Source of the DNA: Brachyspira murdochii
GTDB taxonomy: Bacteria; Spirochaetota; JAAYUW01
DNA: 64,000 nt
Assembly (NCBI GenBank): GCA_020722965.1
Contig: DYJT01000007.1
Location: 1 to 64,000, forward strand
Direction: 5' to 3'
Numbering within the stretch: position 1 is the stretch's first letter; each line of letters starts with the position of its first letter. The notes under the pieces are model-generated. The model was not told where the DNA came from. It did not search any database and saw only the letters and a program-made list of their open reading frames with translations. A program made the translations under genes and the position numbers. This document shows, in pieces, positions 10,159 to 27,176 of the stretch.

Positions 10159-11004
10159 TTACTCCTGTTTTTTTTTCAACTCTTTTTTTAAATTGTTATA
10201 GATATTTTTAGCTTCAACAAGTACTTTTTTATCTGGATCATTCAAGAAATTATATATCCTTTGAAGGATAAGCGGCTTGTCTTTTTTGTAAAGTATTTTT
10301 ATAGTTTTTAGTCTAATTTCGGAATCTTCATCTTCTAAAAATTTGATGCAATATTCTTTTGCTTTTTCATTATAATTATCTTCTATTATTTCTAAAATAG
10401 CAAATTTTATCTCTTTTTTTTTGATGGCTGGAATTATATTTATATCTTCGAGTATCTTAGAACCGAAGTTTTTTTCCAGAAGCTTCAATATGAAAATAAA
10501 GGTTTCTGAATCTTCAACTTTCCTTAAAAATCTAAGTAATATAGTATAAGCAACACGTTTATCTTTTTCAATCAAGGCTTCTGCTGCACTTTTTTGAACA
10601 TTAATATCATTTGAGTAAAATAATCTTTGCATTAGTTCAGAAAACGATAGTTTTAATGTTATGTCATCAATTTTATATTCTTTCAATATCCTTTTGTTAA
10701 CTTGAGAAATTTTACTTTTAAATTGATTATCTAATTTTATTAAAATATCAGACATATTTTGCTTGAATAGTTGCACCTTATATTGATTTTCAAGGGCAAT
10801 ATCATACTCCAATCTTGTTTTAGAATTTGATAAAATAGAAAAAGCCTTTGTCACTTTCTTAAATTTTTCTACAGCAGAAGGATCCTTGTTTTTGTCTGGA
10901 TGAAATTGGAAAACAAGTTTTCTATAAGCCGCTTTAATCTCATCCATAGAAGAATCTGGTCTTACCCTTAAAATTGAATAATAATCATTCAAAAGTTCAT
11001 CCAT
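10159..11004 (-). CDS. J-domain co-chaperone with HEAT-like repeats
   Basis: Residues 5-70 form a J domain with the invariant HPD at 35-37 (FQFHPDKNKD), the signature that stimulates Hsp70 ATPase activity. There is no Gly/Phe region or zinc finger, so it is not a classical DnaJ. Residues about 115-280 are helical, with repeated segments resembling HEAT repeats (for example SAAEALIEKDKRVAYTIL and DSEIRLKTIKILYKKD), which would bind a protein client. It lies 21 bases after the dnaK-like gene and 3 before cheW, which suggests a dedicated chaperone pair for motility or chemotaxis proteins. The client is unknown. Confidence 0.8.
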   Translation of the reverse strand: MDELLNDYYSILRVRPDSSMDEIKAAYRKLVFQFHPDKNKDPSAVEKFKKVTKAFSILSNSKTRLEYDIALENQYKVQLFKQNMSDILIKLDNQFKSKISQVNKRILKEYKIDDITLKLSFSELMQRLFYSNDINVQKSAAEALIEKDKRVAYTILLRFLRKVEDSETFIFILKLLEKNFGSKILEDINIIPAIKKKEIKFAILEIIEDNYNEKAKEYCIKFLEDEDSEIRLKTIKILYKKDKPLILQRIYNFLNDPDKKVLVEAKNIYNNLKKELKKKQE

Positions 11005-11025
11005 AACTTCCTCCTTGAAGTAGGA

Positions 11026-12777
11026 TTATTTCAATAAACCCTTCATTATATATTTTTGTTCATTGTAATCTATTTCGTCATTATAAAATTGTAAAGCTTC
11101 ATAGTAATTCTTTAATTTTTCATAGTTAGCATCTGATATTGATTTGTCTATTTCAGAAATTAGTTCTTTAATCTCATTAGCCAGATCAATGGGATACTTT
11201 GATTTATCAATCTTTTCAATAACTATATTTTTTAAGGTTTTTAAATTGTTTTTTAACTTTAATTTTTCTTCAAATTCTATATCATCTTTCTCAAATGATC
11301 TGCTGCTTTTAATTATATTCTGTATATCCGATAGTTTTAATTCTTTGGTAGATGCATCAACTATAATCTGTTGAGATACATTCGTATCCACATCTTGAGC
11401 ACTAACTGTCAAAATACCATTTACATCGAGAGAAAATGTCACCTTTATTCTTGGTTCACCTGCCTTGGCCTTTCTAATATTATTTAAAATAAATGTACCA
11501 AGTTTAAAATTTTCATTACATATCTTTCTTTCACCCTGGTAAATATTGATTTCTACAACTTTCTGATTATCAACAATTGTTGTAAACATCTTCGAATTTT
11601 CACAGGGGATCTTTGTATTTCTATCAATTATAGGGATAAACAAACCTCCTGTAATTTCAACTCCTAAAGATAGTGGAGTAATATCGACCAGAATAACATC
11701 TTGAATGGATCCTTCCATTACCGCTCCCTGAATTGCTGCCCCAACAGCTACAACTTGATCTGGATCAATTTTTTTTACTATTTTATCCTTAAACATATTT
11801 TCTAATCTTAATTGTACAAGAGGAATTTTTGTAGAACCTCCAACAAGAATTACATTATCTATATCACTTAAATCCATGTTACAGTCTTTTATGGTTTTTT
11901 TAACCAGGTCTATAGTATAACTAACATATTTATCAATCATCATTTCAAATATTTCTCTTTTTAAGCGGTATTCGAGATGCAATGGACCTTTTTCATTTGC
12001 AGATATAAAAGGGATTACAACTTCAGTCTCATTTTCTGTAGATAAAGCGATTTTTGCCTTTTCTGCCGCATCGTATATCTTTGATGAAGCAAACTTATCT
12101 ACTTTTAAATCTTTCCCTGTTTTAAGTTTAAAATAATCAAAAATATCTTGTGCAATCAGATTATCAAATTCAACACCTCCAAGCATGTTATCACCACTGG
12201 TAGAAAGAACATTGAACATACCATCGGATATATCAACTATCGAGACATCAAATGTACCCCCACCAAAATCATATATCAAAACGACTTTATTCATCTTTTC
12301 TTTTTCAAATCCGTATGCTAGACAGGAAGCGGTTGGTTCGTTTATAATTCTTAAAACCTCAAGTCCTGCAAGCCTACCCGCTTCAAAAGTAGCCTTCCTC
12401 TGTATTTCATTAAAATATGCAGGAACTGTGATAACAGCCTTAGTAATTTTTTGTTTGAACATTTTTTCAGCATCTTCTTTTAATTTTTTCAGTATAAAAG
12501 AAGAAATTTCTATAGGAGTAAACTCTCTATTCTTTATAAAATATCTTTTTTCGCTTCCTATATATCTTTTTACCTCGGTAACAACATCATCGGGATATAA
12601 TAATTTTTGATTTTTTGCACTAGTTCCAACAATTATTGAGTCTACAGTATGGACAAAAACAGCTGAAGGAGTAATATATGATCCTTCATCATTTGGTACC
12701 ATTGAAATCTCATCAAATTCATAAACAGCACAACAAGAATTTGTAGTACCAAGATCAATTCCCAGAACAAGTTCCAT
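11026..12777 (-). CDS. dnaK: Hsp70/DnaK-family chaperone in the motility operon
   Basis: The 583-residue product has the Hsp70 ATPase domain (residues 1 to about 365: GIDLGTTNS, YDFGGGTFDVS, NVILVGGSTKIP) and the substrate-binding beta domain (about 380-490), then a shorter helical lid than in housekeeping DnaK (usually about 610-640 residues) and no acidic C-terminal tail. It is followed by a J-domain protein. From memory, Borrelia also carries a second dnaK beside its flhF/flhA genes, so this is likely that spirochaete paralogue and not the general heat-shock DnaK. Specialised folding of flagellar or chemotaxis clients is inference. No CIRCE-like or grpE neighbour was seen. Confidence 0.88.
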   Translation of the reverse strand: MELVLGIDLGTTNSCCAVYEFDEISMVPNDEGSYITPSAVFVHTVDSIIVGTSAKNQKLLYPDDVVTEVKRYIGSEKRYFIKNREFTPIEISSFILKKLKEDAEKMFKQKITKAVITVPAYFNEIQRKATFEAGRLAGLEVLRIINEPTASCLAYGFEKEKMNKVVLIYDFGGGTFDVSIVDISDGMFNVLSTSGDNMLGGVEFDNLIAQDIFDYFKLKTGKDLKVDKFASSKIYDAAEKAKIALSTENETEVVIPFISANEKGPLHLEYRLKREIFEMMIDKYVSYTIDLVKKTIKDCNMDLSDIDNVILVGGSTKIPLVQLRLENMFKDKIVKKIDPDQVVAVGAAIQGAVMEGSIQDVILVDITPLSLGVEITGGLFIPIIDRNTKIPCENSKMFTTIVDNQKVVEINIYQGERKICNENFKLGTFILNNIRKAKAGEPRIKVTFSLDVNGILTVSAQDVDTNVSQQIIVDASTKELKLSDIQNIIKSSRSFEKDDIEFEEKLKLKNNLKTLKNIVIEKIDKSKYPIDLANEIKELISEIDKSISDANYEKLKNYYEALQFYNDEIDYNEQKYIMKGLLK

Positions 12778-13677: not shown

Positions 13678-15648
13678 TCACAATTTATTTCTAAGGGACA
13701 GAACTCTTTTATCAAATAGACGTCTATCGACATCGGGTGGTTCATAAGGACCGGCTTTTATCTCATTATTAATAAATTTAAGCGTGCATGAATTTTGCTC
13801 ATATGTTACTTCATAAGGTTCTTGCCCATATTTAAAATAGATTTTTACCCCGGCGTATATTCTATTTTTTACCGATACCTTTGGAGTTAAATTAAATGAA
13901 GCTATTTTTTTATTTATTTCATCGATATTTTCCAGCGCATTTTTTAAATTTTCTTCTTGTTGACCTAAAACTTCAATTTTATTTTTTAATAGTTCTTCTT
14001 TTTCATTACTCCAGTTTTTTCTTAATTTTCTTTGGGAATTTAAAGTAGAGATATCTTTTTTTAAATCTTCGATTGCATTTTCTATTTCCCTTTTTTGTTT
14101 AGTAACCTCCTCCAGTTCAATTCTTAATCCAGGTGGAAGTCCTACTTCAATTATTGTCTCAGAATATGAAACAGTCCCAAGGTTTCTTGTATTTATCTCA
14201 TTCGTAGCTCTTACAGTTCCTCCTCCTATTTGGGCTCTATGACCGAAACATACTACGGCATCGTTGGCATTTACCTCCGAATGATATATATGGTCATCAA
14301 CTATTACCGAGGATCCAGCATATACTTTGGAATTTTCTATAAATTTAGAAAAAACACTCCCTTCGGCAGAAATAAGAGCTTCGTAATATCCATTAACGCC
14401 TTGAGCTATATAAATATCATTATCAGACATTATTTCACATTTTCCGACGCTACCTCTAATTTCTATATTCCCTTTTGCCTTAACTGAAAAACCATCCAAT
14501 ACTGAACCATGAACCACAACAGATCCTACAAATGTTATATTTCCTGTCTTAATTCCCACATCACCATTTATATGTTTAACTGGTTCAACTCCAATCTTAC
14601 CTGCTTTTTTGACAACATGTCCATCTACTGTTGCCCTTAAAAATTTTCCATCTGCCGATAATTCGGTATTTGGACCGGCTAATATCTGCCTATCAACACC
14701 TTTTTTTGCAGGCATTAATTTACCTATAACTGTATAACCATCCTCCCCATTGGTTGCAGGTATTTTTTCACAAATCAGATCTCCTTTTAATACATTCTGG
14801 ATGTTTTTTACGATGTTTTTAAAATCAAATTTATCTTCTGCAATTGATTTGTATATTGTTTTTTCTGCATTTGGTTCAAAATACATTTTGATTTCGGCAT
14901 CTTTACCATGAATTGGTTGTTTTGCTCTTGCTACGATAATCTCTTTATATTCAATTTTCTCATCTGCCATTCTTGTGACTATATCTTCCAGAATTCCATA
15001 GTTTACACCCTGCGCTTGCAATTCAGAAATAATCTCTTCAGGTGTTAGATCAAATCCGCCTGGCTTAGCAGGGAACAAAGTTGCCACGGCTGTCATTTCA
15101 TTTATACCAATACTTACTTCAATTGTTGCGGAATGTTCCTCTATACCTTCATATGGAGCAACTACAACATATTGTGAGGTTGGATTGTTAATCTCCTTTT
15201 TTACCAGGTTAAGATCATATTTTTCAATATTTTTAGATTTAAAAGCATCTTGTGCATCTTTAAGTTTAATAGATTTACCATTTTTTTGAGGTGGAACTAC
15301 TTTAAATAAGATTCCGTTCCTGCTCTTTATAATAGCAAAATATCCATCCACTGGTTGAGCCAAAATTTCTTGCTCTTCATTTACCTGCTCTTCTACTTCA
15401 TGAATAGCCTCGATAACCTCTGAAATCGGTCTTTTATAAGCAAATATTTTATAATTTTTATTCCCTATACCACCTATTACACCTTTTGAACCATATTGAA
15501 CAATTTCATAATCTATCTCGTCTAAACTTGCTTTTAATCTTCTACAGGCTTCTGAAATCGCTTTTTCTAATGTAGGAGCCTCTACCTCAATCTTCTTAGA
15601 GTCTAAACCAAAATTAATCTTTCTCAGGGCGTTTTTTAATCTATCCAT
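13678..15648 (-). CDS. FapA-family (DUF342) protein with N-terminal Jag-N domain
   Basis: The 656-residue product begins with a Jag-N-like domain (about 1-60; IEVEAPTLEKAISEACRRL then YGSKGVIGG), then a mixed region, then a DUF342/FapA beta-helix core (about 270-500) with repeated short strands such as GNITFVGSVVVHGSV and GNIEIRGSVGKCEI. A coiled coil (about 505-580) and small C-terminal domain follow. FapA of Vibrio interacts with the phosphotransferase protein EIIA-Glc, and related proteins sit near flagellar genes in spirochaetes. Here it lies 25 bases after the sigma-28 gene. Its exact role is unknown. Start supported by AAGGA ahead of ATG. Confidence 0.8.
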   Translation of the reverse strand: MDRLKNALRKINFGLDSKKIEVEAPTLEKAISEACRRLKASLDEIDYEIVQYGSKGVIGGIGNKNYKIFAYKRPISEVIEAIHEVEEQVNEEQEILAQPVDGYFAIIKSRNGILFKVVPPQKNGKSIKLKDAQDAFKSKNIEKYDLNLVKKEINNPTSQYVVVAPYEGIEEHSATIEVSIGINEMTAVATLFPAKPGGFDLTPEEIISELQAQGVNYGILEDIVTRMADEKIEYKEIIVARAKQPIHGKDAEIKMYFEPNAEKTIYKSIAEDKFDFKNIVKNIQNVLKGDLICEKIPATNGEDGYTVIGKLMPAKKGVDRQILAGPNTELSADGKFLRATVDGHVVKKAGKIGVEPVKHINGDVGIKTGNITFVGSVVVHGSVLDGFSVKAKGNIEIRGSVGKCEIMSDNDIYIAQGVNGYYEALISAEGSVFSKFIENSKVYAGSSVIVDDHIYHSEVNANDAVVCFGHRAQIGGGTVRATNEINTRNLGTVSYSETIIEVGLPPGLRIELEEVTKQKREIENAIEDLKKDISTLNSQRKLRKNWSNEKEELLKNKIEVLGQQEENLKNALENIDEINKKIASFNLTPKVSVKNRIYAGVKIYFKYGQEPYEVTYEQNSCTLKFINNEIKAGPYEPPDVDRRLFDKRVLSLRNKL

Positions 15649-15673: not shown

Positions 15674-16477
15674 TCATTTCCCCTGGAAATCTCCTAAAAA
15701 TCTTGCTATTTTGGCTCTTAATCTCATTACTGCCTTAGTATGAAGTTGAGAAACACGGGATTCCGTAATTTCTAATACTTCACCAATTTCTTTAAGTGTT
15801 AATTCTTCATAATAATAAAGGATTAAAACCTTTTTCTCTTTATCTGGAAGGTCTTTTATTGCATTTGCTAATATCTTTGTAATTTCTTCTTTTTCCATGA
15901 CCGTATCAGGATTTTTATGAGTGGGAGCTTCTATGGTACTAATAACTTCTATATTTTCACCATCCTTCATATTCTGATAATAGACTTCTGAAAGACTAAC
16001 AATTGTTGTTGGATTAACTTCAACATATATATTCTGGAGTTCATCTAAGGAAATCCCCAGTTCATCGGCAATTTCATTATCTGTTGCAGGACTTCCCTTC
16101 ACCAACTCGATTTTAGCCATCGCTTCTTCTATTTTCTTGGTTTTTGTTCTTATAGTTCTTGGAATCCAATCCATATTACGTAGCTCATCATATATAGCAC
16201 CCTGAATTCTTGTCATAGCATAAGTATTAAATTTAATATTCTTTGTGGGATCATACTTCTCGATAGCATCGAGTAATCCTAATGAACCATATCCAATTAG
16301 ATCATCGAATTCTACTGAACCTTTAATTTTATAACCAATTTTCCCTGCTATATGTTTTACCAAAGGAGCATATTTTTTAACAAAATACTCCCTTATCTTT
16401 TCATTTTTATTTTTTTTATATTCAATCCATAACTCCTTTTCATCAATCTTATCAAAAGCATCCATCATCCCTCCCAT
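15674..16477 (-). CDS. fliA: Sigma-28 (FliA/WhiG) RNA polymerase sigma factor
   Basis: This 267-residue sigma factor directs transcription of late flagellar and often chemotaxis genes. Region 2 is visible at about residues 40-110 (DLIGYGSLGLLDAIEKYDP, KFNTYAMTRIQGAIYDELR, followed by DWIPR), region 3 at about 115-160 and region 4 at 205-255 (LTLKEIGEVLEITESRVSQL). Three ATG codons are possible at residues 1, 4 and 5; AAGGA before the first makes 16477 the best start, but GGGAGGG inside the first codons would also serve the ATG at codon 4 or 5. No FlgM-like anti-sigma gene was recognised nearby. Confidence 0.92.
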   Translation of the reverse strand: MGGMMDAFDKIDEKELWIEYKKNKNEKIREYFVKKYAPLVKHIAGKIGYKIKGSVEFDDLIGYGSLGLLDAIEKYDPTKNIKFNTYAMTRIQGAIYDELRNMDWIPRTIRTKTKKIEEAMAKIELVKGSPATDNEIADELGISLDELQNIYVEVNPTTIVSLSEVYYQNMKDGENIEVISTIEAPTHKNPDTVMEKEEITKILANAIKDLPDKEKKVLILYYYEELTLKEIGEVLEITESRVSQLHTKAVMRLRAKIARFLGDFQGK

Positions 16478-16492
16478 AACAAATTCCTTTAT

Positions 16493-17581
16493 CTACATAG
16501 TAAGCATTAGCAAAACAATTATTATGAAGATTACTATTCCGCCAATTACCAAAAGCAACAGGTTGGTTGTAATCTTATTTTTCTTTTTTGATGATCTTTT
16601 AAACTGATTTTGACTATCTTTCAAGCCTTCTAATCTTTTTCCGGAAATATCTGCTTCTATTTTTACATCTGTTGCACATATAACTTTTCCTAAAATTCCT
16701 GGACCAAATTCAACAATTATCTTTACAAGATTTTCATATAGAATTTCTTTACTTACTATCTTAGCATTTATACTGTTATTAGTCTGATCTTCGGTATTTA
16801 GTAATAATTTCGATAAATACTGGGCAATGTCTCTATCATCAGATATCCTTACTTTAAGGTAATCTCCCTCTTGTAATATCGATACATCCACTCCCTTAAT
16901 TGGGGAATAGATTGGTTCGCATTCGAGTTCGATAAAATTTATTTGTCCAGAAGATATATTTATATTTTTTTCTTTTTCTTCCTTATTTGATTCATTTTCA
17001 TCAATTTCTTGATCTATTTTTACTGCATCACTTATGATTCTACCCATTTCGAAGGGATCCATTAATGTATACTTAAATTTTATTACAATATTAACTTCAG
17101 TAGTTATTTCATTTAAAATATTTGTAAAAAAATTAATTATAGATTCAGAAAGTTGTTCTTGATCTATTGATCTGATTATTTGAAATAACTTTTCAAGATA
17201 CTTAATATTATTTAATTTTTCTTCTAATCCCTTAATTATAAAAATAAAATCAGATGTTGCTTCGGTAACCTCGATTAGTTGTTTTATCTCTTTAACTTCC
17301 TTTAATAGATCTATTGACATTAATTGCGAATTATCTGATACAGTTAAATACATTTTTTCAATTTTGTTTTGATGAAGATTTAATAATAAAATAATCAAAC
17401 CATATGCTTTTATTCCTAATAAACTAAATTTGACTATAAAACAACCTATATTTTTCTCAAATGAGGATATAATTTTTATCGCTCCTTCGATATCACCACC
17501 TGTAAAAATCAAAAGAGATTTAGCTAATTGTGGATCCACTCCTGTTTGCTCAATCAATTGCTGTAAAGATGATTTTGCCAT
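16493..17581 (-). CDS. Tail-anchored membrane protein with N-terminal UBA-like domain
   Basis: The 362-residue protein starts with a short helical segment resembling a UBA/TS-N fold (residues about 5-40: LIEQTGVDPQLAKSLLIFTGGDIEGAI), continues with a soluble region (45-330) and ends in a single C-terminal membrane helix (about 340-362) preceded by a Lys-rich stretch, so it is probably tail-anchored with the bulk in the cytoplasm. An acidic Asn/Glu linker lies near residues 195-210. It lies between sigma-28 and flhG/flhF, 15 bases before the sigma gene. No known function. AAGGAG precedes ATG. Confidence 0.65.
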   Translation of the reverse strand: MAKSSLQQLIEQTGVDPQLAKSLLIFTGGDIEGAIKIISSFEKNIGCFIVKFSLLGIKAYGLIILLLNLHQNKIEKMYLTVSDNSQLMSIDLLKEVKEIKQLIEVTEATSDFIFIIKGLEEKLNNIKYLEKLFQIIRSIDQEQLSESIINFFTNILNEITTEVNIVIKFKYTLMDPFEMGRIISDAVKIDQEIDENESNKEEKEKNINISSGQINFIELECEPIYSPIKGVDVSILQEGDYLKVRISDDRDIAQYLSKLLLNTEDQTNNSINAKIVSKEILYENLVKIIVEFGPGILGKVICATDVKIEADISGKRLEGLKDSQNQFKRSSKKKNKITTNLLLLVIGGIVIFIIIVLLMLTM

Positions 17582-17614
17582 AATCTCCTTCCCAAAAATT
17601 ATAGAAAAAATACT

Positions 17615-18388
17615 CTATTCATTTTTTAACATCTCTTTAATTACTTTAGCTATTTTTTCGGGTTTATTTTCAATTTTAGATCCTTTCGTAAAATAGATGT
17701 ACTTATCATCGATTCCCTTAACTTCCCCTACAACAGTTGACATCTTAGAAGTAGCAGTAATTTTTGCGGCATCATCAGCCGATATTGACCCAGAATTTAA
17801 ATCAGAATCCCCTTCTATTATCTCAGCATTATTAGATAGATCAATCTCAACCGATTCCTTATCTTTTTGGTAATTCATTTCATCTATAACATCTTTTTTA
17901 TACAAATCATAGCTTTTTTTATTACTTGTGTCTGTACCTTTTTCTTTATCTACATCCATATTCTTATCTATTCTAGAATCGATTTTCTCGGTTAAATTTT
18001 CATTGTCTTTTAATTTCGTAAAAAGCTCTTCATATGATATTTTATCTTCTTCGGATACAAATTCTTTATTATCCCTATTCTCAGTAATTTCGTTTTCATC
18101 GTAGTTAGGATGAAAGCTTTCGGTCTTAATCGATCTTTCCCTAAAATTTTCATTATAATTTTCTTTATTTATATCAATTTTCTCATTTTGAGTATTATTT
18201 GAAGATTGTTCAGAAAATTTATCTAATAAAAAAACCAGAAGATACCCAAGACCGCCTAATATTATAGCTGAAAAAATAGATCTTACGAGAACCCCAACTA
18301 TTGAAGAACCAGAAATAACCGAAATTAAAAAAGAGATAACAAAACCTAAAATTGCAAAAAATAGAGGTAAGATCAATTTATTTTCCAA
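17615..18388 (-). CDS. Two-helix membrane protein with acidic linker, unknown
   Basis: The 257-residue product has two N-terminal membrane helices (about 5-24 and 30-55), a long acidic and Asn/Lys-rich disordered region (about 60-200) and a small folded C-terminal segment (about 205-257; TVVGEVKGIDDKYIYFTKGSK). The start is probably TTG, with AGGAGA about nine bases upstream. It lies 33 bases before the tail-anchored protein gene and 87 after flhG. No family recognised. The two membrane proteins between flhG and sigma-28 may act together, but that rests on position alone. Confidence 0.6.
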   Translation of the reverse strand: MENKLILPLFFAILGFVISFLISVISGSSIVGVLVRSIFSAIILGGLGYLLVFLLDKFSEQSSNNTQNEKIDINKENYNENFRERSIKTESFHPNYDENEITENRDNKEFVSEEDKISYEELFTKLKDNENLTEKIDSRIDKNMDVDKEKGTDTSNKKSYDLYKKDVIDEMNYQKDKESVEIDLSNNAEIIEGDSDLNSGSISADDAAKITATSKMSTVVGEVKGIDDKYIYFTKGSKIENKPEKIAKVIKEMLKNE

Positions 18389-18475
18389 CTTATCGGTTCT
18401 CCTAATTAAATCATTTCTTTGAACTTATTATATTTTAATAAAACAACTTAGTCAATTTATACTATAAAAAATAAT

Positions 18476-19324
18476 TTATGAATATTTTAAATATTTCTTT
18501 AAGAAATTACTTACTCCTTTTCCCTCCACTACATTAATATGTTCTAATTGCGATAAAATATGATCTATACAAATACTAGCTTTAGACTTTGGATTTAAAA
18601 TATAAAAAGGTTTCTGTACTCTTACAGCCTTTTCTACAATCTCATCGTTCATAACATATCCAAGATTTTCAACTTTTATCGACAGGAATTGAAAAGAAAT
18701 ATTTATTATTCTGTCTGCGACTCTTTTACCTTCAGATATCGAGTCACATTTATTAATTACTAATTTGATTGGTATATCTTTATCTAATGAATAAATAGAT
18801 TTTATAATGCCATAAGCATCAGTAATCGATGTAGTTTCCGGAGTCGTTATTATTATGGTTTCGTCAGCAGCAATTATAAAAGATAAAACATTATTTGAAA
18901 CTCCTGCCCCCGTGTCTATTATTATAATATCTGCAAATTCAAGTTCTGTAAGAGAGTCGATAAAAATTTCTCTTTGATCATCAGATAGATTAGCCAATTG
19001 TGAAAAACCAGATGCCCCGGCTATTATTTTTATTCCAAAAGGGGTCTCAAGTACAATTTCCTTCAATGTTTTTTTATTTTTTATTATATGATAAAGATTG
19101 TATTTAGGTATAACTCCAAGAATGACATTGACATTTGCAAGTCCAAGATCTGCATCCATTACTATAACTTTTTTGCCAATTTTAGCATAAGCAATAGCAA
19201 GATTTACGGCAAAATTGGTTTTTCCTACACCACCTTTACCAGAAGAAATTGTTATAATTTTTGTCTTCTGCTTTTTAATATTATTCTCTACAATTTGTTT
19301 TAGCTGCTGTTCTTGATTAATCAT
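18476..19324 (-). CDS. flhG: FlhG (YlxH/MinD-like ATPase), flagellar number control
   Basis: FlhG is a MinD-type ATPase that restrains FlhF and sets flagellar number or placement. The 282-residue product carries the deviant Walker A (SSGKGGVGKTNFAVNLA, residues about 26-42), switch I (MDADLGLANVNV) and Walker B region (IIIDTGAG). Like other FlhG proteins it has a short N-terminal extension with Gln and Lys residues, thought to interact with FlhF. It lies 23 bases after flhF. GGAGAG precedes ATG. Confidence 0.93.
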   Translation of the reverse strand: MINQEQQLKQIVENNIKKQKTKIITISSGKGGVGKTNFAVNLAIAYAKIGKKVIVMDADLGLANVNVILGVIPKYNLYHIIKNKKTLKEIVLETPFGIKIIAGASGFSQLANLSDDQREIFIDSLTELEFADIIIIDTGAGVSNNVLSFIIAADETIIITTPETTSITDAYGIIKSIYSLDKDIPIKLVINKCDSISEGKRVADRIINISFQFLSIKVENLGYVMNDEIVEKAVRVQKPFYILNPKSKASICIDHILSQLEHINVVEGKGVSNFLKKYLKYS

Positions 19325-19347
19325 TAGTCTCTCCTAATGCCTTAATA

Positions 19348-20556
19348 TTAAAAACCTTCTGAACTAAAAGCCAGTTTTAAAATAAAATTTGAATCTGGTT
19401 CTATTAAGTTTTTCGTCATTTCTTGACCATTTGTAATATATGAAATAGGAATATTATATTTTGTTATTGCACTTATAACCTGTCCAAAGCTCGAGGTTTC
19501 ATCTATCTTTGTAATTATCAGATAATTATAATTTAAAAATTTAAATCTTTCGAAAATATCAATTAAGTCACAATACTTAGTCGTTGCTGAAATGGTCAAA
19601 AATGTTTTAATATTTCTTTTCTTCACATCAAGAATATCCTTAATAGAACCAAGCATCTTACTATCCTTTTGAGATGTCCCGGGACTATCTACAAAGATTA
19701 TATCGTCTTTTTCAGTAATCATAGAAATATAATCATCTCTTTTCATTATCGGATAAAAAGGAACCTGAAGTATCTCTGCAGCTATCTGAAGATGGGCATA
19801 ACCCCCTATTTTAGCTTGATCTGCACTCAATAATTTTACTTTGTAATTCTGATTAACTTTTGCATTTGTAGCGAGTTTAACAATCGTTGTTGTTTTACCT
19901 ACCCCCGTTGGACCTACAAGAACAGCGATATCATCTTTGCTAATTTTTTTATTATCTATTTTTATTCTTGAAGCTATATATTCTGTGACTTTAAGCCTAA
20001 TTTGATCTATAGAGTTTGATTCTTCAAATGTTAGATTTTTGGATAAATATTCATATAGTTCTTGTTGGAATTCTTTAGAATAATCGAGTGTAGCGAGAGA
20101 ATTAATATATTTTTCTAGTACAGATTCGGTTTTTAAATTTGGAGAAGAGATATCATTTAATTTTTTTTCTATAGATTCAAGTTTTTGAAAAATAGAATTA
20201 TCATTATTTTTCTCTGAACTTTTTTGATCTTCATTTTGATTATTATCTTGCTCACTTTCATAATTATCGGCAAATGCATAGTCTTCCGGCTCGTTTTCAG
20301 CTTTCGAGGGACTAATATAAGACTGACCTTTATTATATAATGATTTTCTATTATTTGCAGCTTTTAATAGCTCTTTTTTCTGTTTTAAAAGATAATCTTC
20401 ATCTCTTATCCCGGCAACCATAACATATCGTATCTTTTTTAAAAATCCCTTTTTCTTCTGATCTACCTTAATAACATAGGCATCTTCGCCATATTCCCGA
20501 ATTAACTTTTCCTTTAAGTCTTTTACACTGTCCCCTTCCAATGTTATGTATTGCAT
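19348..20556 (-). CDS. flhF: FlhF, SRP-type GTPase for flagellar placement
   Basis: FlhF is a GTPase related to Ffh/FtsY that recruits the first flagellar components to their site. In the 402-residue product the basic N-terminal B domain (1-60) and an acidic linker (75-120) precede the NG domain, with G1 VGPTGVGKTTTIVKL (about 214-228), SADQ, VDSPG and ITKIDETSSFG. Its ATG overlaps the flhA stop by one base (TAATG), with GGAGG seven to eight bases upstream, so translation is coupled. Confidence 0.94.
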   Translation of the reverse strand: MQYITLEGDSVKDLKEKLIREYGEDAYVIKVDQKKKGFLKKIRYVMVAGIRDEDYLLKQKKELLKAANNRKSLYNKGQSYISPSKAENEPEDYAFADNYESEQDNNQNEDQKSSEKNNDNSIFQKLESIEKKLNDISSPNLKTESVLEKYINSLATLDYSKEFQQELYEYLSKNLTFEESNSIDQIRLKVTEYIASRIKIDNKKISKDDIAVLVGPTGVGKTTTIVKLATNAKVNQNYKVKLLSADQAKIGGYAHLQIAAEILQVPFYPIMKRDDYISMITEKDDIIFVDSPGTSQKDSKMLGSIKDILDVKKRNIKTFLTISATTKYCDLIDIFERFKFLNYNYLIITKIDETSSFGQVISAITKYNIPISYITNGQEMTKNLIEPDSNFILKLAFSSEGF

Positions 20557-22646
20557 TATTTCTCCTCCTGTTCTTCACTAATAGAAATCTGTCCGACATA
20601 CTCAAGTGCAATTGAAGGAGAAATCTCTGATGTAGATAGTATTACAGCTTTCGGACATACCGTAGCGGTTATTGACCTTATCTGCTTTCGTATCCTCGGA
20701 CTTGTCAATATAATAAAATAATCCAATTTTTTTGAAATCGATTCCTGTTCATATTTCAATATGGTGTTTATAAAAGAGGGTAGAAATTTTGGTGGAAAAG
20801 TATAAATTCCAAGTCTTTCGGATTTTTCAAATTCATTTGCAAGATAATTTTCTAGTTTTGAATTAAAAGCATATACCCTTAATCTACCTTTTTCATCTGC
20901 ATGGGTTCTACAAATCTGGTTTTTAAGTCTTTGTCTAACAAATTCTGTAACTAAATCTGGATCCAGATTTTTATTCTGTCCTAATTTATCGGCAACAGTT
21001 TCAAGTATTGTTTCAATATTTCTTATAGAGATTTTTTCAGATAAAAGATTTTGAAAGACTTTTTGTAAAAAACCTATATTAGCTACAGATTCAACTTCGC
21101 TAACAAGTGTTTTGTATTCATCTCTGATAGAGTCAATTATCTTTTTAACTTCTTCTCTTCCAAGCAGACTATCTACATTTGCGATTATAGTTTCAGTCAA
21201 ATGAGTTGCAATAACAGTAGCGCAATTTATAACGGTATAACCAAAAGATTCTGCTATATCTTTTTTATTAAAGTCTATCCAGACAGCTTCTAGATTGTAT
21301 GTTGGTTCTTTTGTTGTAATACCATCTATTTTTTCTGAAACTGCCCCAGGATTAATTGCCAAAAGCTTATCTGCAAATAATTTCCATGAATTTGCTTTGA
21401 CTCCATGTATCTTAATAGCATATTCATTTGCATCAAGTTTTAAAGAATCTCTAACAACTATAGGTGGAACAATCATACCGTAATCATATGCTATCTGTTT
21501 TCTAACATTAGCAATTCTTTCGAATAGATCTCCCCCCACAGACTTATCGACAAGAGGAATTAGCGAATAACCTATTTCTAAGGCAATCGGCTCAATAGGG
21601 ACCAATTTATCGATGATCAAAGGTTTCTCCTCTTCCTTCTTCTCTTCCTTTTTAATTCCTTCTTCTTTCTTAGTGGTCTGCATCGTATATGCTAAATACC
21701 CGAAGAAAAATCCAAGGGGAAGAAAAACATAAAATGGGAAACCAGGAACAAATCCAAAAATTAATAATGAACCGCTAAGTACCCATAAAGGTTTAATAGA
21801 TCTAGTTGATTCCCTTTTAAATTCTGAACCTAGCGAATCTGCCGCTTCAGAACGAGATACTATTATACCTGCAGAAATACCATTTAAAAGAGATGGGATC
21901 TGAGAAACCAAACCATCACCTACCGTAAAAATAAGAAAAGTCTGCATTGCATCTTGAATGCTTAGACCAAATTTCAAGCTTCCAAGCAATATACCTCCTA
22001 CTATGTTAACTATGGTAATAAATATACCTACTATTACATCACCTGAGACAAATTTCGAGGCACCATCCATTGAACCATAAAAATCTGCTTCTTTTTGTAA
22101 TGCCTGCCTTCTTCTTAGTGCTTCTTGATCATTAATAATCCCTGCTGCTAAATCAGAATCAATCATCATCTGTTTCCCTGGCAATGAATCCAATGCGAAT
22201 CTAGCTGCTACTTCTGACATTCTGGTTGTTCCTCTAGCTATAACAATATATTGAACAGCAATTATTATTATAAATATTATCAAACCAACTATGAAATTCC
22301 CCCCAACCACAAAAGAACCAAAAGCAGTAATAAGTTTACCCTTAAATGCAGGTCCTTGAGATAGTATTAATCTTGTAGAGGAAATATTTAACCCTAATCG
22401 CATCAGGGTCATAATCAACAAAAGACTTGGGAAAATGGATATCTCCAATGGATTTGTAGAAAAAATAACCAAAAACAGTACAAATAAAGAAAACCCCAAG
22501 GATAATGACATAAAGAAATCTAGAAAAAATGTTGGTAATGGAATTATAAACATTAGGATTATTGTCATTATAACTATGGCGATTAATATATCTGGTGAAT
22601 TTAATATTTTTGAAAAATCGATTTTTGGTCTCGTTGCATCTGCCAT
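20556..22646 (-). CDS. flhA: FlhA, flagellar type III export gate protein
   Basis: FlhA forms the nonameric export gate ring. The 696-residue product has about eight membrane helices in the first 330 residues, the conserved cytoplasmic loop of the FHIPEP family between helices 4 and 5 (MSEVAARFALDSLPGKQMMID, with GSMDGASKFV), a charged Glu/Lys linker and a C-terminal cytoplasmic domain of about 340 residues that docks chaperone-substrate complexes. It begins immediately after the flhB stop codon. Full family length. Confidence 0.97.
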   Translation of the reverse strand: MADATRPKIDFSKILNSPDILIAIVIMTIILMFIIPLPTFFLDFFMSLSLGFSLFVLFLVIFSTNPLEISIFPSLLLIMTLMRLGLNISSTRLILSQGPAFKGKLITAFGSFVVGGNFIVGLIIFIIIIAVQYIVIARGTTRMSEVAARFALDSLPGKQMMIDSDLAAGIINDQEALRRRQALQKEADFYGSMDGASKFVSGDVIVGIFITIVNIVGGILLGSLKFGLSIQDAMQTFLIFTVGDGLVSQIPSLLNGISAGIIVSRSEAADSLGSEFKRESTRSIKPLWVLSGSLLIFGFVPGFPFYVFLPLGFFFGYLAYTMQTTKKEEGIKKEEKKEEEKPLIIDKLVPIEPIALEIGYSLIPLVDKSVGGDLFERIANVRKQIAYDYGMIVPPIVVRDSLKLDANEYAIKIHGVKANSWKLFADKLLAINPGAVSEKIDGITTKEPTYNLEAVWIDFNKKDIAESFGYTVINCATVIATHLTETIIANVDSLLGREEVKKIIDSIRDEYKTLVSEVESVANIGFLQKVFQNLLSEKISIRNIETILETVADKLGQNKNLDPDLVTEFVRQRLKNQICRTHADEKGRLRVYAFNSKLENYLANEFEKSERLGIYTFPPKFLPSFINTILKYEQESISKKLDYFIILTSPRIRKQIRSITATVCPKAVILSTSEISPSIALEYVGQISISEEQEEK

Positions 22647-23825
22647 TTAAAGACCTCCAAAATTAAAGGTTCTTTTCTTTCTTCTAGAATATTCTTTATA
22701 AATATATTTATAGATATTTGCAACAACATAAAGCATATCTTCTGGAATATATTCACCCACAGATACTCTGCTATAAAGTTCTCTTGCTAAAGGTTTATTT
22801 TCAATGATTATAATATCATTTTCAAAAGCTATTTTTTTTATAGTAGCTGCGAGTAAATCTTCTCCTTTTGCAACAACCATTGGAGCAGGATCTGCACCCA
22901 TTTCATATTTCAGTGCAACTGCAAAGTGAGTTGGGTTTGTTATTACTACATCTGCTGTTTTTACATTTTGTAAACTTTTCCTTTGAGCTATTTCTCTTCT
23001 TTTTTTATTTAATGCCTGTCTTATCTCTGGCCTTCCTTCTTGCTCATAAATTTCATCAAGTAATTCCTGTTTACTCATCTTTAACGAATCTATATATCTT
23101 TTTCTTTGAATAACATAATCTATAACTGCGACAACAACTAGGATTATTAAAATTTTTATCAAGATTGATTTGAAAAGATTTATACCTAATTCTATTGTTT
23201 TCTGGTAAGAATCAGTTACCGATTCAAAAAGATTTCCCAGCGATGAATTAATCGCAAATATAACTATGGCCAAAAGTCCTAAAACAAGAAATAAACTTTT
23301 TAGTAGATTAACAAACCCTTCCAAACTAAAAATTCTTTTAAAATATGCAGAAAAGTTAGGTGCTATTCTAGAGAGATTCGGGGTCAATAAGGAAGGAAGG
23401 ATTAAAAACCCAACCTGTAAGACATTTGCAATTATGGCTCCAATAACTGGAGGGATAAAAATAATAGCTAAAACTGGCAATAACTGATTGAGTGAATATT
23501 TTATAAGATAATCTAAGTTTTCTACTGTAAAAGGAAGATCAACCTGAAAAAAGAAATATAATAAATTTACAATTCGCTGCCATATAAAAGGAAAGAACAC
23601 GAAAATTGATGCTAAAGTTGCAGCTAATGATGAAAATGCAACAATCTCCTGGGATTTTAGTACCTGACCTTTCTCTCTTGCTCTTTTCTTTTTGGTCTCT
23701 GTTGGTAACTCTGTTCTACCTTCATCTTCAGCGGCGAATCTCTGCAAATCAAGTTTAGGTATATTTTGCAATCTTGAGTAATCAATCGAAGTAAAATTCA
23801 AAAATCTTAAATCACTTGAAATCAA
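22647..23825 (-). CDS. flhB: FlhB, flagellar export switch protein
   Basis: FlhB switches export specificity after self-cleavage. The 392-residue product has the N-terminal signature LQRFAAEDEGRTELPTE, four membrane helices (about 60-240) and the autocleavage motif NPTH at 297-300 in the cytoplasmic domain. The start is most likely TTG at 23825, with AAAGGA six bases upstream; no ATG or other good start lies before the signature. It lies 18 bases after fliR. Confidence 0.95.
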   Translation of the reverse strand: MISSDLRFLNFTSIDYSRLQNIPKLDLQRFAAEDEGRTELPTETKKKRAREKGQVLKSQEIVAFSSLAATLASIFVFFPFIWQRIVNLLYFFFQVDLPFTVENLDYLIKYSLNQLLPVLAIIFIPPVIGAIIANVLQVGFLILPSLLTPNLSRIAPNFSAYFKRIFSLEGFVNLLKSLFLVLGLLAIVIFAINSSLGNLFESVTDSYQKTIELGINLFKSILIKILIILVVVAVIDYVIQRKRYIDSLKMSKQELLDEIYEQEGRPEIRQALNKKRREIAQRKSLQNVKTADVVITNPTHFAVALKYEMGADPAPMVVAKGEDLLAATIKKIAFENDIIIIENKPLARELYSRVSVGEYIPEDMLYVVANIYKYIYKEYSRRKKRTFNFGGL

Positions 23826-23843
23826 ACTTTAATCCTTTAATTT

Positions 23844-24626
23844 TTACCCTAATAATTTTAACCATGAAACAATTCTTACAAATATGTTTTGAAACAGGTT
23901 ATTTGCAAATGTGGTAAAAAAGGGGATGAACAATAATATTAAAATAAAACCAACAATAACCTGTATGTTTATGCCTATCATAAAGATATTTACCTGTGGC
24001 GCAAACTTAGATATTATACCAAGAGTTATATTTAATATTAACAAAGTGACAACAATGGGAATAGCCAATTGTAAAGATATTAAAAAAAGATCGCGAAATA
24101 GTATTATTACATTAGGCATAATAGAATTAATTTTACTTGTAAAGTCGACATATCTTACAAGTTCAAATGATTTTCTTAATACCAATATTTCATATTCAAT
24201 CCCATTTATAGAAATGAAAATTAACAAAGCAAAAACCTGAAATACCTGAGATATAACAGGAACTTCAATCTCAGACAATGGATCTAAAACTTCCGAAATT
24301 CCTAGACCCATTTGATAAGAAAAAAATTCACCTGCTACTTGAAATGTTGTGAAGATGATAGAAATAAATAGACCTATTGAAAAACCTATAAATAATTCAT
24401 TTACCAATAGTAAAATATATGACCAGGTATCAATAGGTATTTTAATATTTAATGATTCTGATGCAAAAGGGAATATAATGATAGCCAGTAAAAACATTAA
24501 TGCTATAACCACCTGGGGCGGTATTATTGAAGATGAAAAAACAGGTGATGTAATAGTTATTCCGACCAAACGAATAAGCACAAGAAGAAATATGGGAAAA
24601 ATATCTCTTAAATAAAACGGAATCAT
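23844..24626 (-). CDS. fliR: FliR, flagellar export protein
   Basis: The 260-residue integral membrane protein (about six helices) fits FliR, which together with FliP and FliQ forms the helical export gate core. Conserved segments include FSIGLFISIIF, the QMGLGISEVLDP region and the C-terminal helices. The gene lies 14 bases after fliQ and 18 before flhB, the usual order. AAGGG precedes ATG. Confidence 0.94.
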   Translation of the reverse strand: MIPFYLRDIFPIFLLVLIRLVGITITSPVFSSSIIPPQVVIALMFLLAIIIFPFASESLNIKIPIDTWSYILLLVNELFIGFSIGLFISIIFTTFQVAGEFFSYQMGLGISEVLDPLSEIEVPVISQVFQVFALLIFISINGIEYEILVLRKSFELVRYVDFTSKINSIMPNVIILFRDLFLISLQLAIPIVVTLLILNITLGIISKFAPQVNIFMIGINIQVIVGFILILLFIPFFTTFANNLFQNIFVRIVSWLKLLG

Positions 24627-24640
24627 CTAACATTCCCTTT

Positions 24641-24910
24641 TTATTTTATTGCACTTGATATAAGTTCCATAAGATAATTAATATAATTTATCAGCCTTGT
24701 TAACATCCATGGTCCTAATATTATAAGAACGGCAAATATAGAGATCACCTTTGGAACAAATGTTAATGTTTGTTCTTGAATCTGGGTAGTTGCCTGAAAT
24801 ATGGATACTATCAGTCCCACAACAAGAGGGACAATAAGAATTGGTAGACCAATTATGACTAATTCGTAGATCGATCTTCTTAAAATATCCATTACTAAAC
24901 CTAATGTCAT
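24641..24910 (-). CDS. fliQ: FliQ, flagellar export protein
   Basis: The 89-residue product has two membrane helices and the family features GLPILIVPLVVGLIVSIFQA, TQIQEQTL and FVPK, at the usual length for FliQ. It sits between fliP and fliR. GAGG precedes ATG by about seven bases. The protein packs as four copies around the FliP pentamer in the export gate. Confidence 0.95.
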   Translation of the reverse strand: MTLGLVMDILRRSIYELVIIGLPILIVPLVVGLIVSIFQATTQIQEQTLTFVPKVISIFAVLIILGPWMLTRLINYINYLMELISSAIK

Positions 24911-24961: not shown

Positions 24962-25723
24962 TTATTTTGGAAAAGATTTAATTAAAGATCCAATCAACAA
25001 ATTCCACCCATCGGCAAGCACAAAGACAATGATTTTAAATGGTAAAGAGATCATGATAGGAGGCAGCATAATCATCCCCATAGCCATTAATGTGGCAGAA
25101 ACAAGCATATCTATCAGTAGAAAAGGGATCATTATAAGTATTCCTATATTAAACGCTGTCTTAAGTTCAGAGAGCATAAATGCCGGAATCAATACATATG
25201 TTGGTATATCCTTATAAGATTCCACCTTTGGTATATTTGAAACTCTTAAAAAAAGTGCAATATCTACTGGTCTTGTTACCTTGAACATAAATGCTCTTAG
25301 TGGTTCAACACCTTTATAGTAAAGACCATTTAAATCTATTTTACCCTGCAAATAGGGTTGTAAGGCATCTTGATTTATCTGCACAAAAACAGGCATCATC
25401 ACAAATATCGTCATAAAAAGAGCGAGTCCTGCCATCACCTGAGCCGGAGGCATCTGCTGTGTACCTAAACCTCTTTTTAAGAAGTCAAAAACTATTATAA
25501 ATCGCACATAACTTGTTAGGGAAATTACTAAAGATGGACCCAAAGATAATAAAGAAATAAGTAAAAGTATTTCTAATGCTGAAGAAACAGAAGAAGGATT
25601 TTTAGCGTTTTGGATTGAAATATTAACATTAGGTATAGGGATTGTATTTTGTTGTGAAAAGGCATTTATCGGGAAAGCAGACAATAAAAATAAAATTAAG
25701 ATTAAAATAAAAGATTTTTTCAT
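24962..25723 (-). CDS. fliP: FliP, flagellar export gate protein
   Basis: FliP forms the pentameric core of the flagellar export gate. An in-frame opening runs up to 25828, but the start is better placed at the ATG at 25723, which gives a cleavable signal peptide (MKKSFILILILFLLSAFPINA) and a 253-residue protein of normal length. Conserved features include LLLISLLSLGPSL, TSYVRFIIVFDFLKRGLGTQ and QVMAGLALF. The ATG is directly preceded by nine G residues, which must act as the ribosome site and are unusual in this AT-rich sequence. This is the first flagellar gene of the long operon. Confidence 0.94.
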   Translation of the reverse strand: MKKSFILILILFLLSAFPINAFSQQNTIPIPNVNISIQNAKNPSSVSSALEILLLISLLSLGPSLVISLTSYVRFIIVFDFLKRGLGTQQMPPAQVMAGLALFMTIFVMMPVFVQINQDALQPYLQGKIDLNGLYYKGVEPLRAFMFKVTRPVDIALFLRVSNIPKVESYKDIPTYVLIPAFMLSELKTAFNIGILIMIPFLLIDMLVSATLMAMGMIMLPPIMISLPFKIIVFVLADGWNLLIGSLIKSFPK

Positions 25724-25733
25724 CCCCCCCCCT
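25724..25733 (-). promoter_or_regulatory. Nine-G tract serving as ribosome site of fliP
   Basis: On the minus strand the sequence reads AGGGGGGGGG then ATG. It is the longest G run I noticed in the window. With no gap between the G run and the ATG, only its 5' part can pair with the ribosome, so tract length would set the effective spacing. Slipped-strand changes here could tune or switch fliP translation. Confidence 0.6.
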
Positions 25734-25787
25734 AAAATTAAAACCCAGTAAAAATCAAACAGATAAATAGAATAAATACTTTTATAA

Positions 25788-25816
25788 TTTATTGTAACTA
25801 TTTTGCATTTTGTCAA
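25788..25816 (-). promoter_or_regulatory. Candidate sigma-70 promoter of the fliP flagellar operon
   Basis: On the minus strand a perfect -35 box TTGACA (25811-25816) is followed after 17 bases by AATAAA (25788-25793, four of six matches to TATAAT). A start about seven bases further would leave a leader of roughly 55-60 bases before fliP. The -10 is imperfect, and transcription could also read through from pfk, so this is a candidate. Confidence 0.45.
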
Positions 25817-25868
25817 GAGTTTTAACAAAATATTTTATACTTTTTATTCATAAATATTAGTTTTTTTA

Positions 25869-27176
25869 TCAATTTTTCAAAGATGGCTGTCCTGTAGACA
25901 AAATAACTGATTGCCATAGCGAGCTTTTTGGATCTATCTTTTTTCTACCAAATTTAACGATATCCATTGGTAAATGGATGAAAGTATCGTTCCATTTTCC
26001 AATAACAACCTTTGTTTTACCTGCCATAGCAGCATGCACTGCATGCTCCGCTAAAAAACCACAATATACAGCATCTTCTGCATTAGCTGCAACTGAACGT
26101 ATCATATATGAAGGATCGATATATTTTATATTTACTTCTACCGATTTTTCGGCAAAATATTTTTTAATCCTATTTTTAAGATAACTTCCAATATCTTCTA
26201 AAATCCTATTACCGGATTGGTCGAATTTCTCTTCTTTTTTATCAAAAAACCTCTGCCCTGCTCCTTCTGCAACAACAATTAAAGCATGATTAGCCTTTTT
26301 AAGTCTATTTTCTAGTTCATTTAAAAGCCCATAAGGTCCATCAATATCAAAATCTATTTCTGGAACAAGTACATAATTTGCATCTTTTTGTGCAAGAGCA
26401 GCTTGAGCAGCTATAAATCCGGATTCTCTTCCCATAAGTTTTACTATTCCAACTCCATTTGGTGCACCTTTAGCCTCATTATGTGCACATCTTATGGCTT
26501 CCTGTGCGGCTGAAACAGCGGTTTGAAAACCGAAAGATTTGCTAATAAATGGGATATCATTATCTATAGTTTTAGGAATATTTACTATAGAAATTGGTAA
26601 ATTTCTTTTCTCAATCTCATTTGCTATCTCAATTGCTCCCCTGATAGTTCCATCTCCACCTATAGTAAAAAGAATATCTATACCATAATGAACAAGTGAG
26701 TCGACTATTTTGCTGCTTTCGACATTTCCTCTTGATGAACCAAGATATGAACCACCGAGGTTATGGATATCTGCAACTTCACTAACATCTAAAAATATTG
26801 GATTTATTTTATTTGAAATATCTATTCCTCTGTAACCATATCTAAAACCTATTATCTTCTTTACCCCATATTGATACAAAAGTTGTAAAACAACCGATCT
26901 GATTACATTATTAAGTCCAGGGCATAATCCTCCACAGGTCACTATTCCTGCTGTTGTCTTTTCTGGATCGAAAAACAGATTCTCTCTTGGTCCTGCCCTC
27001 TCGAAAACAATAAGTGATTTTTCATCATTATTAGAAATAGCTGTCTTAACCTCTTCATATCCTATATCATAAAGTATTTTTTCATTATCTTTTATAAAAT
27101 TGATATTTTGTATTGGTGAAAAATATATTGGTTTACCAAGATTTTTAATAGTAAAATCAAAATCGATTTTTTCCAT
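25869..27176 (-). CDS. pfk: 6-phosphofructokinase, probably ATP-type of the PPi-PFK-like clade
   Basis: This 435-residue enzyme phosphorylates fructose 6-phosphate in glycolysis. The fold motifs are clear: GGLCPGLNNVIR (about 82-93), IGGDGTIRGA (172-181), PKTIDNDIPF (201-210) and LMGRESGFIAA. Gly 176 in GGDGT is the residue type of ATP-dependent enzymes (PPi enzymes have Asp there), while Lys 202 in PKTIDND is typical of the PPi-type and plant/spirochaete-like clade; the combination points to ATP use in that clade. It lies 39 bases after the yitT-like gene and 145 before fliP. GGAG precedes ATG. Confidence 0.88.
   Translation of the reverse strand: MEKIDFDFTIKNLGKPIYFSPIQNINFIKDNEKILYDIGYEEVKTAISNNDEKSLIVFERAGPRENLFFDPEKTTAGIVTCGGLCPGLNNVIRSVVLQLLYQYGVKKIIGFRYGYRGIDISNKINPIFLDVSEVADIHNLGGSYLGSSRGNVESSKIVDSLVHYGIDILFTIGGDGTIRGAIEIANEIEKRNLPISIVNIPKTIDNDIPFISKSFGFQTAVSAAQEAIRCAHNEAKGAPNGVGIVKLMGRESGFIAAQAALAQKDANYVLVPEIDFDIDGPYGLLNELENRLKKANHALIVVAEGAGQRFFDKKEEKFDQSGNRILEDIGSYLKNRIKKYFAEKSVEVNIKYIDPSYMIRSVAANAEDAVYCGFLAEHAVHAAMAGKTKVVIGKWNDTFIHLPMDIVKFGRKKIDPKSSLWQSVILSTGQPSLKN

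Follow-up and report, generated by a model that had tools for sequence, protein, structure and literature searches.

The nine-G tract before the fliP start codon of Brachyspira murdochii as a probable G-rich Shine-Dalgarno site, of a kind also found at flagellar genes and ftsZ of other spirochaetes

Introduction

Nine consecutive G residues directly precede the start codon of the flagellar gene fliP in Brachyspira murdochii, which raises the question of what such a tract does at this position. An earlier note, made from the sequence alone, had suggested a possible phase-variable switch for the whole flagellar operon. We examined the tract in the window, by which we mean the whole analysed stretch of 64,000 nucleotides (positions 1 to 64,000 of contig DYJT01000007.1, assembly GCA_020722965.1), and compared it with related genomes. 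The reading that we favour, with a probability of roughly 80%, is that the tract is the Shine-Dalgarno (SD) site of fliP, a G-rich leader of a spirochaete type in which the interrupting A has turned into G.

Position and rarity of the tract

The tract and the genes that follow it are listed below.

25724-25732, minus strand: tract of nine G directly at the fliP ATG; together with A25733 it makes up the putative G-rich SD block
24962-25723, minus strand: fliP, 253 aa, ATG start, TIGR01103 above cut-off
24641-24910, minus strand: fliQ, TIGR01402 above cut-off
15674-24626, minus strand: fliR, flhB, flhA, flhF, an flhG-like MinD gene, two unnamed genes and the whiG/fliA sigma factor gene

Immediately 5' of fliP, the minus strand at 25733..25721 reads A GGGGGGGGG ATG, that is A(G9)ATG, which confirmed the adjoining position described earlier. 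AG9ATG occurred a single time in the assembly (41 contigs, 2.07 Mb). A search against plasmids returned no match. The reported rarity of long G runs held as well: the 2.07 Mb genome contained 17 runs of at least seven G, of which that at fliP was the longest and the sole 9-mer, followed by one 8-mer, and only one other of the 17 immediately preceded a plausible start codon. Composition alone would yield about 0.09 runs of at least nine G per genome, and at least two overlapping 8-mers arose in 4 of 100 shuffles of the window. The fliP tract is a real outlier at a meaningful location.

The FliP protein scored 263 bits against an equivalog cut-off of 217 (NCBIfam TIGR01103), and fliP was 82-84% identical to its orthologues in two sister species. 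The gene order fliPQR-flhBA-flhF-flhG...whiG was found, with fliP as the first gene of the flagellar run, as had been stated; the gene 5' of it on the same strand encodes 6-phosphofructokinase. The proposed effect on the whole operon was not upheld, since the tract would act on the translation of fliP, and fliQ, whose start is 51 nt 3' of the fliP stop codon, has its own, weaker ribosome site. Three minus-strand genes in or just after the run (13678-15648, 16493-17581 and 17615-18388) did not match any NCBIfam family at the applied cut-off, and the latter two had no Pfam match either. Genes for a DnaK-like chaperone and a DnaJ-domain protein (10159-12777, minus strand) separate the fliP-whiG run from the chemotaxis genes cheW, cheR, cheD, cheA and cheB.

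The same site in related species

The sister species G001 carries GGGAGGGGGG-ATG at fliP (GGGAG6ATG, a block of 10 nt) and the sister species G002 carries GGGAGGGGGGG-ATG (GGGAG7ATG, 11 nt), while G003, which belongs to another family of the same order, has GGGGAGGGGG-ATG (GGGGAG5ATG). What was kept across these four genomes, the window genome included, was a G-rich block of approximately 10-11 nt touching the ATG and not an uninterrupted tract; the A that breaks the run was missing only in the window species. The position of a G-rich block before fliP was conserved in G001, G002 and G003 and in roughly half of 30 relatives, with one genome compared per species.

Ribosome binding and the spacing model

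Classical SD sites have the sequence AAGGAGG at a spacing of 5-9 nt. The block at fliP (A plus nine G) resembles them in being purine-rich, in lying just 5' of the start codon, where it abuts the ATG, and in its capacity to pair with CCUCC at an energy within the strong range of the genome: the duplex energy with the assumed usual anti-SD was -11.4 kcal/mol, rank 25 of the 348 genes in sampled stretches. It differs from the usual SD site in being all G in its tract, in touching the ATG and in having Gs beyond the pairing core, and we filed it as an extreme SD variant. Against the SD reading, the strongest SD sites of the genome were ordinary AAGGAGGT types, and the spacing of the tract is short for a classical site. 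Runs of five to six G were present in the ribosome-site region of 14 of the 348 sampled genes. Background statistics for the window genome were taken from sampled stretches (348 or 365 genes), with start codons chosen by an SD-favouring rule that was the same for all genes. A 16S gene was not found in the window MAG or in three relatives (G000-G003), and the rRNA tail was therefore assumed.

Most likely, the tract recruits ribosomes to fliP. The CCUCC tail of the ribosome would pair with its 5' part (AGGGGG), including one G-U wobble, and approximately 4 nt of Gs would remain between the paired part and the ATG. The nine Gs would then represent GGGAGGGGGG after an A-to-G substitution, tolerated as a G-U wobble. 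Pairing with the 16S rRNA, use by the ribosome and the A-to-G origin of the tract are what we infer from this comparison.

When spacing was modelled with parameters from E. coli, predicted initiation relative to G9 (1) was 0.14 for G8, 2.05 for G10 and 4.07 for G11, and the sister leaders reached 1.5 and 3.0. Predicted initiation at fliQ and fliR was 0.39 and 0.26 times that of fliP, respectively, and the G-rich site would thus give fliP a stronger predicted start than these downstream genes. That a change in tract length would alter ribosome-site spacing, as claimed earlier, was reproduced by the model as a graded effect, from 0.14-fold (G8) to 4-fold (G11), and occasional slippage of the tract may tune fliP translation gradually rather than switch it. 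We also considered a homopolymeric SD site that buffers its own spacing. This idea was rejected: pairing energy was constant from G7 to G10, but the spacing model was steep, because the tract abuts the ATG.

A G-rich leader shared by flagellar genes and ftsZ

Relatives were scored for at least seven G within the 8 nt immediately 5' of the start codon. Such leaders preceded fliP at 17 of the 30 best-scoring loci (L005 was re-read by hand), fliF at 17 of 30 and ftsZ at 13 of 30, vs. 0 of the 30 best-scoring recA loci; the genome sets behind the 30 loci per gene overlap and are not identical. Fisher tests against recA gave p = 6e-7 for fliP, 6e-7 for fliF and 5e-5 for ftsZ, with lineages that are not independent. 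The background in the window genome was 2 of 365 sampled genes (approximately 0.5%), namely fliP and the gene of an RpoD-like sigma factor. Pure-G leaders (G7-G9) were present before fliF of G002 and before ftsZ of G039 and G024, and further ones preceded fliP in L069, L101, L104 and L109, all four of them distant MAGs. Their occurrence at fliF, ftsZ and fliP in unrelated lineages argues for pure G as a tolerated variant rather than a fliP-specific device.

Whole genomes (G000-G003) were also searched for GGGRGGGG no more than 5 nt away from a start codon, and the sites linked to genes were few. In the window genome the pattern was found at fliP, fliE, fliF, ftsZ and one small unnamed gene, the leaders with extra Gs at fliE, fliF and ftsZ being located at L209:1501-1508, L209:1988-1995 and L227:1501-1508. 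The clear cases in G001 were ftsZ, fliP, whiG, fliE and fliF. Assuming 50 flagellar genes in 1900, flagellar enrichment had a p of about 2e-6 in G001 and 2e-4 in the window genome. The sigma factor gene at the end of the flagellar run has a related leader in both species.

16469-16475, minus strand: GGGAGGG leader of whiG/fliA, with the likely start ATG at 16465

This leader is a weaker version of the fliP element within the same gene run, and the whiG leader of G001 is GGGAGGGG. In G006, the leader was located 5' of flhA, fliF, ftsZ and the gene preceding fliP, and also at dnaE-like and purE-like genes (assigned by eye), at the gene of a 2-oxoacid oxidoreductase subunit and at a SpiroCoCo gene. 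Flagellar genes and ftsZ are enriched for the G-rich leader, which some other genes have as well. Genes of SpiroCoCo-family coiled-coil proteins with GGGAGGGG leaders were seen in two distant spirochaetes (L363 in G006 and L203 in G037).

Two groups of GGGAGGGG matches were set aside. Several matches in G000-G003 without an ORF were sites such as GGGAGGGGATTTGAACCCCT, which resembles a reversed tRNA 3' end, and in G037 a dispersed palindromic repeat, CCCCTCTTGGGAGGGGTTGGGGGTGGG, accounted for many matches and inflated the counts (L237, L240, L245-L261). A literature search on a GGGAGGGG-type motif in spirochaetes returned nothing relevant, a weak result given that most subscription papers were not covered.

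The fliP poly-G tract exemplifies a leader that genes for flagella and for division have in common across a phylum with intracellular flagella. This shared leader is a more interesting lead than the tract itself, and its extra Gs are what rRNA pairing leaves unexplained: the usual anti-SD leaves the Gs 3' of GGAGG unpaired, and pairing alone thus does not account for their conservation. An atypical 16S tail, a binding protein or RNA, or strong initiation alone may be the reason why fliE, fliF, fliP and ftsZ keep GGGAGGGG. A 16S 3' end of CCUCCUUU would favour ordinary pairing, and a C-richer tail would itself account for GGGAGGGG.

Alternative explanations

A tentative and rather doubtful extension of the SD reading is that GGGAGGGG and its pure-G form constitute a dedicated translational element of Spirochaetota, one that is read by something beyond the 16S tail, marks the early flagellar genes fliE, fliF, fliP, flhA, fliO, fliG and whiG as well as ftsZ, couples flagellar assembly to division and, in uninterrupted versions such as G9, allows length-dependent tuning. 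If the extra Gs do matter beyond ribosome pairing, they would represent an undescribed layer of flagellar control.

Phase variation of a graded kind is unlikely. In such a rheostat, slipped-strand mispairing would shift the spacing between SD site and ATG, and the amount of FliP and flagellation would differ between cells. It would fit the longest G run of the genome and the steep response of the spacing model (0.14x at G8, 2x at G10, 4x at G11), although that model rests on E. coli parameters. Precedents from other bacteria are also in its favour. Poly-G tracts of 7-11 vary within Treponema pallidum strains, where length variation was measured and alters transcription (PMC7864442), and in Helicobacter pylori, according to the description of Josenhans et al. 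(2000) in PMC11394524, a C8 tract within the fliP coding sequence (nt 261) switches motility by frameshift, with reversion observed. However, the uninterrupted tract expected of a contingency locus was not kept in the two sister species (GGGAG6 and GGGAG7), and the A in their tracts is expected to damp slippage. The same type of leader precedes ftsZ, which is normally required for division and an unlikely on/off gene, and the genome as a whole has few long G runs and lacks an array of contingency loci. G-rich leaders, pure or interrupted, before fliF and ftsZ are more easily reconciled with a ribosome-binding site than with a contingency locus. The switch proposed in the earlier note was hence not supported.

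The geometry of the known tracts applies at fliP in no case. Compared with H. pylori, as described in that paper, the likeness is that the same gene, fliP, contains or adjoins a homopolymer of 8-9; the difference, which had been pointed out before and stood, is that the G tract precedes the fliP start codon and has no effect on frame, whereas the C tract is within the coding frame. The T. pallidum tracts 5' of tprE/G/J/L and tp0126 are likewise spirochaete poly-G tracts of about nine upstream of a gene, but they are promoter-located, upstream of the transcript start (PMC7864442), whereas the fliP tract is at the putative ribosome site. In the Mycobacterium tuberculosis espR leader, one added G far from the start was proposed to change folding (PMC11898584). 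This is again a homopolymer in an untranslated leader that is thought to act on translation; unlike there, the tract at fliP is itself the putative ribosome site, and folding of the fliP leader showed no excess structure (z = 0.60). A cautionary point is that not every spirochaete poly-G tract is a phase switch: some would be ribosome sites made pure by a tolerated A-to-G change. Elsewhere, G002 has a G12 run that is not directly followed by an ORF (L232 near 1497; G002:C182:11510-11521), which is a better candidate for length variation than the G9 at fliP.

Also unlikely is a translational regulon, in which a protein or a C-rich small RNA would bind GGGAGGGG and co-control early flagellar genes and ftsZ, coupling the building of periplasmic flagella to division. 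The clear GGGRGGGG-start genes in G001 and the window genome, mostly flagellar genes plus ftsZ, and the conservation of extra Gs beyond rRNA pairing would agree with such a system. Its specificity is weakened by G006, where the element is also found at the dnaE-like, purE-like, 2-oxoacid oxidoreductase and SpiroCoCo genes. Neither a regulator nor a C-rich RNA was identified, no Rfam family matched across 25000-27000, and strong translation could suffice as the reason for the leader.

An error of sequencing or assembly, by which the true length would differ from nine, is very unlikely. The draft genome is in 41 contigs and homopolymers are error-prone, but the G-rich blocks of the sister species are about as long overall (10 and 11 nt) and are in the same place.

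The upstream frame and a promoter-like block

The remaining explanation involves the region 5' of the tract.

25734-25828, minus strand: in-frame extension opened by a TTG 5' of the tract, considered untranslated, with stops in G001 and G002
25777-25837, minus strand: conserved block that resembles a promoter and contains TTGACA (25816-25811)

The feature originally singled out extends from the last G of the tract (25724) to this TTG (25828). An opening of 35 codons had been described through the tract, with the proposal that translation from upstream would let a length change shift the frame. The first part stood: the TTG at 25828 opens an ORF of 288 aa that runs through the tract, with 35 extra codons. 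The opening is not conserved, as stop codons interrupt it 16 codons (G001) and 10 codons (G002) 5' of the ATG. The frameshift route fell with it, since the TTG is situated 12 nt 5' of the conserved TTGACA (25816-25811), through which the extension would pass. That the Gs encode Gly-Gly-Gly from an upstream start, the frame being open for 35 codons from the TTG, is thus implausible given the stops in both sisters, the TTG lying 5' of the conserved TTGACA, and a product whose signal-peptide-like N-terminus begins at the ATG (25723). The stops, the TTGACA inside the extension and this N-terminus together place the tract in an untranslated leader.

The TTGACA block is located approximately 80 nt 5' of the tract, a distance that argues against the tract lying in the promoter. 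A generic sigma-70 promoter scan did not flag the block, and its assignment (25777..25837) as a putative promoter, with no distinct -10 element, comes from conservation. Over approximately 60 nt it was nearly identical in the sister G001, where the leader from the block to the G tract had diverged. A TTGACA stretch was also located 5' of fliP in G003 (L005 near 2430, minus strand) and in G001 (L003), and its presence at this gene in all three genomes, the window genome included, suggests a conserved promoter for the fliP run.
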